Of a stretch of DNA of 40,670 nt, positions 25,432 to 40,361 are shown piece by piece. The first letter of the stretch is position 1; each line of letters opens with the position of its first letter. The DNA comes from Oscillatoria sp. HE19RPO (GTDB taxonomy: Bacteria > Cyanobacteriota > Cyanobacteriia > Cyanobacteriales > Laspinemataceae). The stretch is from the NCBI RefSeq assembly GCF_024220515.1, contig NZ_JAMXOT010000102.1:1-40670 (forward strand). Reading direction: 5' to 3'. Under the pieces are notes generated by a model. It was not told where the DNA came from. It saw only the letters and a list, made by a program, of their open reading frames with translations, and ran no database searches. A program made the translations under genes and the position numbers.

Positions 25432-25847
25432 ATTTTCGGTAGTATTTTCCGTAATTCTACGGATAAAATCCCAATTTGCGGATTTTAAATCCTTGAGTTT
25501 TGTGCAGTTTAGGTCAACCGTTTTTATAAAGATAAAGCCATAAACCGGAAAAACTTCATCAAAATTTCATACAAATGGGGAACTATTTAGAAATAAAATG
25601 AGCAATGACTCCCTGGGCAGATAAAAAGTTCAACCCTTTTTAAATTCGGGGGTATAGAGGGGGATTGAAGAGCAAACTAAACGGATGAAAAATGCTAAAA
25701 ACCTTTTGTATTCATCTCTTCGGGAGTTGCAGGCTGGGCGATTTTCAACCCCCTACAAAAACAATTTATTTTTTCTATCTTTCTTGTCCAGATAGAGCAT
25801 AAGGAATGCGTATTAGGGAATATCAGTTATCCTAAGCACTTCCTTAT
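25432..25847. other. Intergenic region upstream of patX
   Basis: A 416-bp AT-rich gap. A weak hairpin TTTTCCGTA / TACGGATAAAA at about 25447-25471 may end the Wzz-HNH transcript. Close to patX lies TTAGGGAATATCAGTTAT (25813-25830), shared with 11535-11552. No gene is visible. Confidence 0.5.
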
Positions 25848-26204
25848 ATGCGCTTCTCTACTATTCTTGTTCTCTCTACCCTCTTAGTTTCCAATCTTGC
25901 TCCGAGTGCCAAATCTTACTCAGTAGACCTTTTGGCTACCTACAATGAGGGCTTCTTTTCTCATGCCTCGTTAGCACGCTTCACCTTACCCTCAGAAACC
26001 AGCCAGATTAATCCCTGCGAGACCGAAGATAGCAAACCAGGTTGCAGCCGCCGGGACTTCCGCGCTTCTGGGGGAGAACAGTCTCAGACTGATAGCATCC
26101 TGCTGGCGCAAAAGCTCATCAATTCTCAGCAAGCTGAACCTAACTGTCCGATGATGAAAACTCATCACCAAGTTGGACGCGGTAGTGGGCGATGCGAACC
26201 CTAG
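25848..26204 (+). CDS. patX: PatX-like secreted RGSGR peptide precursor
   Basis: A 118-aa protein with an N-terminal signal peptide (MRFSTILVLSTLLVSNLAPS, cleavage about 20-24), a low-complexity middle and a C-terminal RGSGR (111-115) in GRGSGRCEP. RGSGR is the pentapeptide of PatS and PatX that binds HetR and sets heterocyst spacing in Nostoc/Anabaena. PatX-type precursors, with signal peptide and near-terminal RGSGR, also occur in filamentous species that make no heterocysts. Four cysteines (57, 65, 99, 116) are present, unusual for the short PatS peptides. A terminator hairpin follows at 26288. The middle region is too variable for a firm homology call, so the assignment rests on signal peptide, size and pentapeptide position. 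Confidence 0.75.
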   Translation: MRFSTILVLSTLLVSNLAPSAKSYSVDLLATYNEGFFSHASLARFTLPSETSQINPCETEDSKPGCSRRDFRASGGEQSQTDSILLAQKLINSQQAEPNCPMMKTHHQVGRGSGRCEP

Positions 26205-26287
26205 GTCACGAACAGACTTTTCCTCACCGCAAACATTCCTATCCAATACCCTTTTCCTCTTGGGTATAGCAATGTTTGATTCCTCTA

Positions 26288-26329
26288 ATCAAAAGCCGGT
26301 TGTCACGTTGAGTGCGACCGGCTTTTGAT
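26288..26329. terminator. Bidirectional terminator after patX
   Basis: ATCAAAAGCCGGT (26288-26300) and ACCGGCTTTTGAT (26317-26329) form a perfect 13-bp stem with A/T tracts on both outer strands. Confidence 0.85.
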
Positions 26330-26340
26330 TGGGGGGATGG

Positions 26341-26445
26341 GTCATTTGTCATTTGTCCTGGGTCATTTGTCATTTGTCCTGGGTCATTTGTCATTTGTCC
26401 TGGGTCATTTGTCATTTGTCCTGGGTCATTTGTCATTTGTCCTGG
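26341..26445. repeat. 21-bp tandem repeat, five copies
   Basis: GTCATTTGTCATTTGTCCTG plus G repeats at 26341, 26362, 26383, 26404 and 26425 without change. The period of seven codons keeps all frames open and produces artefactual repeat peptides. It lies between the patX terminator and the end of the small membrane protein gene. Confidence 0.97.
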
Positions 26446-26458
26446 GTGGAGGGGGGGT

Positions 26459-39491: not shown

Positions 39492-40361
39492 TTAGATATC
39501 CGCCTCCGCATCCGGATCAATTCCTAGCGATCGCAAACGTTCCGCTAATCGTGCCGCTTTGCGTTCTGCCGCTTCCGCGCGCTGTTTTTCCTGTTCGGCG
39601 CGCTGTTTTTCCTGTTCGGCACGCTGTTTTTCCTGTTCGGCACGCTGTTTTTCCTGTTCCGTTCGCTGTTTTTCCAATTCAGCGCGTTCCGAACCAATCA
39701 ACAACAGATTCCCTTCCAAATCCCACCAACGTAACCAGAATTGGTTTTGATTTTGATAAGTCCCCTGCCATAAACCCAACTCCACTCCCATCGGCACAAT
39801 CGGATAATGACCTCGTTCATTCGGTTCTATCATTTGATAAGAAAAATCCGTCAAATGATAAACCTCTAACTGACCCGACTTGATTTCATAAATTCCATAG
39901 TAGGGAATGCGGATAATCTGTTCATACACCCAAAACTTACCCGGTTTAACCGTTTTTCCCTCCATAGACACCCCCAGGGGAGTTCTATCCCGTTCTTCCG
40001 CGCCATTGCCACTGGCAAATTCTAAGGCAATCAAAGGGGCCCTCAATTCTCGCCACAGCACATAAGAACGACGCACCTCCCCATCCAGGTTCTGTGGGAC
40101 ATTCGGCACATAAAACCAATCCGGGGCCTCCGCTCCCTTTTCCGGGGGATCCGTTTCTCGCCAGTAAATGCCGCTATCTTGTCCAATACAATACTGTCCA
40201 TCCGGATGCCTTGCCTCTAAGACTGGCCCCAGGGAATCCGTCAACAGAATACTTTGTGGATGCTCCTGAAAATTTTTCACAAAGGTGCCATCTTCTTCTG
40301 GTAGTTGCGTATGGTCAGGGAATGGCGCTGGCAGATTGATATCGGTTACTGTTTCGCTCAT
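39492..40361 (-). CDS. Uma2 family (DUF820) protein with repeat coiled-coil tail
   Basis: A 289-aa protein. Residues 1-205 carry the PD-(D/E)XK-like Uma2 fold common in cyanobacteria: PDWFYVPNVP (80-89), LRAPLIALEFASGNGAEERD (107-126) with the acidic/Glu pair typical of the active site, and KFWVYEQIIRIPYYGIYEI (143-161) with the conserved Y-x3-I-x-Y pattern. Residues about 227-272 are an EKQRAEQ heptad repeat (five near-identical copies, from a 21-bp DNA tandem at about 39580-39675), predicted to be a long coiled coil. The tail ends LAERLRSLGIDPDAE, frequent in this family. Nuclease activity is presumed, not shown. ATG 40361 is the start. Confidence 0.88.
   Translation of the reverse strand: MSETVTDINLPAPFPDHTQLPEEDGTFVKNFQEHPQSILLTDSLGPVLEARHPDGQYCIGQDSGIYWRETDPPEKGAEAPDWFYVPNVPQNLDGEVRRSYVLWRELRAPLIALEFASGNGAEERDRTPLGVSMEGKTVKPGKFWVYEQIIRIPYYGIYEIKSGQLEVYHLTDFSYQMIEPNERGHYPIVPMGVELGLWQGTYQNQNQFWLRWWDLEGNLLLIGSERAELEKQRTEQEKQRAEQEKQRAEQEKQRAEQEKQRAEAAERKAARLAERLRSLGIDPDAEADI

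Follow-up and report, generated by a model that had tools for sequence, protein, structure and literature searches.

A divergent, putatively exported PatX-type RGSGR precursor in Laspinema and multi-copy RGSGR precursors in other cyanobacteria

The stretch of DNA analysed here (40,670 nt from Oscillatoria sp. HE19RPO, hereafter the window) contains a small gene that, by analogy to PatX of Nostoc, most likely encodes an exported PatX-type precursor of a HetR-inhibitory RGSGR peptide; we put the probability of this reading at roughly 0.6. Judged by its sequence, the gene is a divergent variant of the PatX-type precursors and lies outside the NF047413 equivalog as that model is calibrated. It is maintained throughout the sampled Laspinema genomes, and in other genera precursors repeat the pentapeptide as many as 17 times.

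The window gene and its product

The window gene spans 118 codons from an ATG to a TAG (25848–26204, + strand). Its product begins with MRFSTILVLSTLLVSNLAPSAKS and ends with VGRGSGRCEP, which places RGSGR at residues 111–115 of 118, and it contains four cysteines at residues 57, 66, 100 and 116, the last directly after the pentapeptide. The reading frame, the three residues between RGSGR and the end, and the cysteines are all as the sequence-only reading had described them. The parts of the gene are as follows:

25848..26204, + strand: CDS of the 118-aa PatX-like RGSGR precursor, with orthologues in 8/8 congeneric genomes
25848..25916, + strand: signal-peptide-like N-terminus (residues 1–23), predicted by inspection
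26016..26045, + strand: C-x8-C module CETEDSKPGC (residues 57–66), both cysteines invariant in 8/8
26178..26192, + strand: RGSGR pentapeptide (residues 111–115), codons identical in 8/8, pentapeptide retained at the locus in G010 and G008
26193..26201, + strand: C-terminal tail CEP, starting with Cys116; relatives end RGSGR-VHNI, -VDA, -VEA, -LEA or -VE
26287..26330, no strand assigned: inverted repeat 3´ of the gene, a probable intrinsic terminator by its sequence, the repeat being kept across eight aligned genomes

The N-terminus is composed of an n-region (MR), a hydrophobic segment at residues 3–18 and A-x-S sites near residues 21–23, in agreement with the signal peptide that had been proposed, which is a prediction from sequence. 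It scores 14.0 bits against an HMM built from 16 PatX N-termini and outranks 33 of 35 hydrophobic control N-termini; the two controls that outscore it are PatX-like themselves. Pfam has no family for the protein. Against the PatX model NF047413 it reaches 12.2 bits, under the cut-off of 30, although this is a strict threshold, which a short HRGSGR PatX in the source genome (29.1 bits) and the PatX adjoining hetR in G009 (27.8 bits) also fail to reach.

PatX (NF047413; asl2332 of Anabaena/Nostoc PCC 7120) and the window protein are both small and hydrophobic at the N-terminus, carry RG(S/T)GR close to the C-terminus and come from genomes with hetR; the candidate DIF1-like element of the window gene, about 60 nt upstream, would be a further likeness. 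Unlike PatX, the window protein has four cysteines, carries G for H before the pentapeptide and ends in CEP, and its length is twice that of the PatX proteins (58 and 59 aa) in its own genome; its promoter element is TCCAGA for TCCGGA, its score is far from the cut-off (12.2 against 30 bits) and its gene is unlinked to hetR. PatS (NF047415) is also the RGSGR-bearing precursor of a HetR inhibitor, as the window protein putatively is, but it is a 17-aa peptide with no signal peptide and a C-terminal RGSGR, whereas the window protein has 118 residues and a signal-like N-terminus; NF047415 was not among the model matches of the window protein. HetN is a reductase-like enzyme. It shares RGSGR with the window protein and restrains HetR in Anabaena (PMC7761841), but its RGSGR is internal. 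The processing of PatS presumably takes place in the cytoplasm (PMC12756182).

Two further features of the window were observed. Past the terminator, tandem copies of about 21 bp (GGGTCATTTGTCATTTGTCCT) occupy 26338–26450 and vary among the aligned congeneric genomes. A second RGSGR word at 39517–39678 (− strand) lies in a short repetitive frame with RTGKTA repeats and no signal, and is probably due to chance.

Conservation of the gene and its locus

The RGSGR word by itself has no discriminating power. In the 7.67-Mb source genome (G000), the degenerate word CGN-GGN-WSN-GGN-CGN occurs 54 times, which is the chance level (57 for the reversed control); the scan covered CGN-coded arginines and left AGR-coded ones out. 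Twenty of the 54 sites encode RGSGR or RGTGR in frame and ten of these lie within 20 codons of a stop, among which small ORFs with a hydrophobic N-terminus number only three: the window gene and two short PatX genes.

A full-length orthologue of the window gene is present once in each of eight Laspinema genomes (8/8) at the same locus, the other seven proteins being 81–90% identical to the window protein. RGSGR-CEP and the four cysteines are invariant in all eight, and the eight RGSGRCEP codons show no base difference; since 52 of the 76 amino-acid-invariant degenerate codons in the alignment are codon-invariant as well, the unchanged codons are only a modest extra point. A 42% match in G004 (L010) was dropped as an unrelated short frame without RGSGR.

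The genes at the locus encode, in this order, Ppx/GppA phosphatase, a 404-aa protein that no Pfam family matches, the RGSGR precursor, a small membrane-like protein (opposite strand), MlaE permease, DUF3119, DUF3086 and glycerol-3-phosphate acyltransferase. Each of the other seven Laspinema genomes shows the same order over the stretch available from it, except that the small membrane protein had no match in G001. With MlaE as the anchor, 18 further genomes were examined and 17 gave a match. Two of these, from two other genera of the family, carry a small gene at the locus with RGSGR 3–4 residues from the end: a 97-aa protein ending GGRGSGRVHNI in G010 and a 105-aa protein with a GTG start ending DQRGSGRVDA in G008. 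The other 15 show no RGSGR frame within at most 1.5 kb on each side of MlaE, where some loci are cut by contig ends, and wider stretches around MlaE in G009, G011 and G012 show none either. In its mature region the syntenic G010 protein resembles the window protein weakly (137 of 3000 shuffles did as well), and that of G008 shows no similarity (1577 of 3000); the case for orthology of the two is made by synteny, size, the N-terminus and the RGSGR end.

Because it is conserved in 8/8 Laspinema genomes with the same codons, and because RGSGR stands near the end of the gene at this locus in two other genera, the window gene is, on sequence grounds, a conserved gene and not a chance word. The sequence-only reading had named two findings that would count against it, an RGSGR not conserved in orthologues here and a genome without hetR; instead, the motif is kept in the eight Laspinema genomes as well as in G010 and G008, and hetR is found once elsewhere in the source genome. 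We regard as very improbable the alternative that a small exported protein with some other function ends in RGSGR by accident. The chance-level count of the word and the rejection of the protein by the PatX model would fit such an accident, but the fixation of the word with its codons, its retention at the locus in other genera and the PatX-type promoter position described below would not.

The cysteines had been taken to suggest a disulfide-stabilised or tethered precursor, with conservation among relatives as a check. Cys57, 66, 100 and 116 are invariant in 8/8 Laspinema, but all four are missing from the mature parts of the syntenic proteins in G010 and G008 (the single Cys of the G010 protein sits in its signal-like part), which makes the cysteines dispensable at the locus and limits the idea to Laspinema at most. 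Outside the genus only the C-x8-C module recurs, as CDSESDKPGC in a 17-copy precursor of G010, and a Cys directly after RGSGR is also seen in precursors of G009 and G032. These recurrences and the invariance within Laspinema would be consistent with a stored precursor in which disulfides hold RGSGR near the surface until reduction or proteolysis frees it. We consider this quite improbable; most of the other RG(S/T)GR precursors compared carry no comparable set of cysteines.

Promoter position and leader

The region upstream of the start codon contains three elements:

25787..25792, + strand: TCCAGA, a DIF1-like promoter element one base away from the core TCCGGA, at −61 from the ATG; at −60/−61 in 8/8 Laspinema
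25811..25816, + strand: TATTAG, a −10-like element 18 nt past the DIF1-like core; at −36/−37 in 8/8
25800..25846, + strand: imperfect inverted repeat, a hairpin that adjoins the start codon; z of −2.9 to −3.1, also −3.7, for the window gene

In the alignment of eight genomes, 92 of 110 columns are invariant at −110 to −1, compared with 268 of 357 in the CDS and 95 of 190 in the region above. A short upstream reading frame in the aligned leader was set aside, as the promoter and the inverted repeat explain the region better. The exact DIF1 core TCCGGA was not found within 350 nt upstream of the window gene. The syntenic genes in G010 and G008 have CGTATTA in their upstream regions as well, and five multi-copy precursor genes adjacent to hetR carry TCCTGA at −59 to −62.

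Scanning from −50 to −72 detected TCCNGA in 30 of 42 RG(S/T)GR genes, always at −57 to −64, whereas windows of the same width further upstream gave 13 of 462 and none of 76 control genes had it at −57 to −64. The 42 genes are not independent: eight are orthologues of the window gene, and the five from which the pattern was taken are also among them; with the orthologues reduced to one (the seven outside G000 removed), the count is 23 of 35. Elhai and Khudyakov (2018) reportedly place a DIF1 motif no more than 69 nt upstream of patX, and the position of TCCNGA agrees with that criterion. The proposal that the gene is PatX-like is supported, and its leader resembles that of PatX genes. In Anabaena, the DIF1 promoters of patS, patX and hetR are reported to need HetZ (PMC7377430).

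The hairpin potential of the leader is a shared property. Over −50 to −1 the median z is −1.6 for 34 precursor genes; the values for comparison are +0.18 in the stretch upstream of these genes and +0.37 in 76 control genes (Wilcoxon against the upstream stretch, p about 1e-4, with relatives that are not independent). Among the leaders of these 34 RG(S/T)GR genes, the hairpin arms differ in sequence from gene to gene. Transcription of patS is reported to start about 35 nt past the DIF1 core (PMC7377430); with a similar start here the left arm would fall outside the RNA, and the inverted repeat may act as RNA or as DNA.

HetR and PatX genes in the source genome and its relatives

The source genome has one hetR, at G000:C61, whose product aligns over nearly its full length with the solved HetR chains 3qod and 4hri (554 bits over 298 residues), and each of the eight Laspinema genomes has one HetR gene. 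Two short PatX genes, G000:C330 (59 aa, 36.0 bits) and G000:C125 (58 aa, 29.1 bits; NF047413, cut-off 30), both end in HRGSGR. The view of the window gene as the PatX of this genome therefore needs qualification: it is PatX-like, but it is a third, divergent gene under the cut-off, next to two short HRGSGR PatX genes elsewhere. The sequence-only reading had also let PatX-type proteins accompany hetR. The window gene is not adjacent to hetR. On one chromosome of the near-complete G004 assembly (3 contigs), hetR is at 2.16 Mb, the two short PatX genes are at 0.91 and 4.06 Mb and the orthologue of the window gene is at 5.87 Mb, all far from one another, which does not bear out an association by position.

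Related arrangements were noted in passing. G000:C451 (L043 from base 318, + strand) encodes a small protein whose N-terminus, MRLSTSVLLFGLV, is PatX-like and which ends in CGLHDGRRCDDRS without RGSGR, perhaps a degenerate or altered paralogue. Shortly before its hetR, G014 carries a tandem pair of similar patX genes (L113, 2862–3110 and 3659–3901, both + strand), and at the hetR locus of G023 a PatX-like protein has RGTSR in place of RG(S/T)GR (L073 from base 608 on the carrying strand).

No nifH was found over the model cut-off in the 14 genomes of the family that were searched, which indicates that the circuit here is not about nitrogen-fixing cells. Matches of about 220 bits to the nifH model are presumably the related ChlL.

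Among 39 relatives, 17 have both HetR and a PatX-model match over the cut-off, one has PatX only (G008), eight have HetR only and 13 have neither, and this co-occurrence counts in favour of a peptide that acts on HetR. G008 points the other way. It encodes an 11-copy precursor (L108, 7989–8609, + strand), the syntenic single-copy precursor (L218, 5395–5736, − strand) and a short HRGSGR precursor (L216, 1986–2186, − strand), and yet it gave no match to PF03574 and none over the cut-off to PF18460, the HetR domains; three precursors without a detectable HetR count against HetR as the reader. The window gene might thus make an RGSGR signal for a different receptor, for example an exported or membrane protein, with HetR as one of several readers. 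The deletions in Leptolyngbya BL0902, where the effects of PatX are described by the authors as largely HetR-independent (PMC11298460), lend weight to such a receptor and count against the preferred reading. We nevertheless consider it unlikely. G008 is a single draft of 320 contigs and the sole genome of its genus in the sample, so hetR may have been lost in assembly; the other 38 relatives show clear co-occurrence; and multi-copy precursors adjoin hetR in seven of nine genomes of other orders, as described next.

Multi-copy RG(S/T)GR precursors

Within the family of the window, precursors with three (G011, G012, G013), 11 (G008) and 17 (G010) copies of RGSGR were found. They have signal-like N-termini, and their ends are -RGSGRLEA, -RGSGRVEA and -RGSGRVE. 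The 17-copy precursor, G010:C95 (L107, 7248–8288, − strand), is a 338-aa protein in which the tandem copies are arranged in units of about 15–16 residues (RGSGRIKSDFQSFDD(G)). Its segment CDSESDKPGCSR matches CETEDSKPGCSR of the window protein and none of 3000 shuffles was as good; the two proteins have in common the C-x8-C module and the GRGSGR context. With the multi-copy precursors in general, the window protein shares a signal-peptide-like N-terminus and an RGSGR near the C-terminus, but it has one copy. Kinship of the window protein with the three-copy and 11-copy precursors through mature-region similarity was rejected (1477, 1915 and 365 of 3000 shuffles as good for the three-copy proteins of G012 and G013 and the 11-copy protein of G008). 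From the search with the 11-copy precursor, L086–L089, L091–L094, L097 and L098 were dropped before counting as low-complexity or coiled-coil sequences without RGSGR.

A class-wide DNA pattern of three close copies was run on 388 genomes with the first arginine restricted to CGC, which gives an undercount. It matched 12 genomes, in nine of which the match is a small frame with 3–5 copies; these nine belong to families f43, f45 and f48, outside the order of the window. No RG(S/T)GR frame was present at the matches in G264, G468 and G432, nor at one of the two in G473, and L139, L141, L146 and L149 were dropped before counting for lack of such a frame. HetR is present in all nine genomes (9/9), and seven of them have the precursor a short way upstream of hetR in the same orientation, at most about 1.1 kb from the HetR domain. 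Precursors with 4–5 copies, some mixing RGSGR and RGTGR, lie directly upstream of hetR in these other orders at the following positions:

L219, 3186–3554, − strand
L220, 2795–3040, − strand
L221, 2652–3002, − strand
L222, 2593–2844, − strand
L223, 1600–1965, + strand

Where the chain continues after the pentapeptide, the next residue is I, V or L in 65 of 81 copies from 32 precursors (repeats counted singly), a preference that may point to cleavage behind the arginine; the window protein has Cys at that place. In the literature searched for PatX and RGSGR, no title or abstract opening describes multi-copy RGSGR precursors or the window gene, and the multi-copy forms may be new. A more far-reaching view would make the window gene the single-copy end of an exported RGSGR lineage that grew from one to 17 copies, a bacterial counterpart of the yeast alpha-factor polyprecursors in which dose is set by repeat number, with the peptide of G008 read by a receptor other than HetR. 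We regard this combination as rather unlikely.

Proposed function

For the preferred reading, an exported precursor of a HetR-inhibitory peptide, the steps of export, cleavage, HetR binding and inhibition are modelled on work in Nostoc PCC 7120, where PatX is exported and cut by PatP and an HRGTGR peptide binds and inhibits HetR (PMC12756182). The window gene would probably be transcribed alone, from the degenerate DIF1-type promoter to its own terminator. The precursor would then be exported by Sec and cut outside the cytoplasm to release a peptide that contains RGSGR, namely (G)RGSGR, possibly still carrying CEP, which would enter the same or neighbouring cells, bind the hood domain of HetR and restrain it. 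In this non-heterocystous host without nifH the circuit would control something else; necridium formation, filament breakage or growth is our guess. Necridia and filament fragmentation have been suggested as an old role of the HetR/PatX circuit (PMC7761841, PMC12756182). Several observations count against the preferred reading: CEP follows RGSGR, so that an extra cut on the carboxyl side may be needed, the protein scores 12.2 bits against a cut-off of 30, the exact TCCGGA is missing, and the gene is unlinked to hetR.

Implications

Filamentous cyanobacteria that never form heterocysts have HetR and PatX in common. Here, three RGSGR precursors of two types are retained by a single organism that lacks nifH, and one of the three scores far under the cut-off of the PatX model. 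A published survey of 474 genomes relied on Pfam and NCBI PGAP models over their trusted cut-offs and on strict domain presence (PMC12756182); with such settings it likely missed precursors of the window type, and probably the three-copy, 11-copy and 17-copy forms as well. Our observations suggest that present gene surveys capture only part of the RGSGR peptide language. The multi-copy precursors beside hetR are natural variants of signal dose and provide material on dose versus receptor choice in the patterning of simple filaments.
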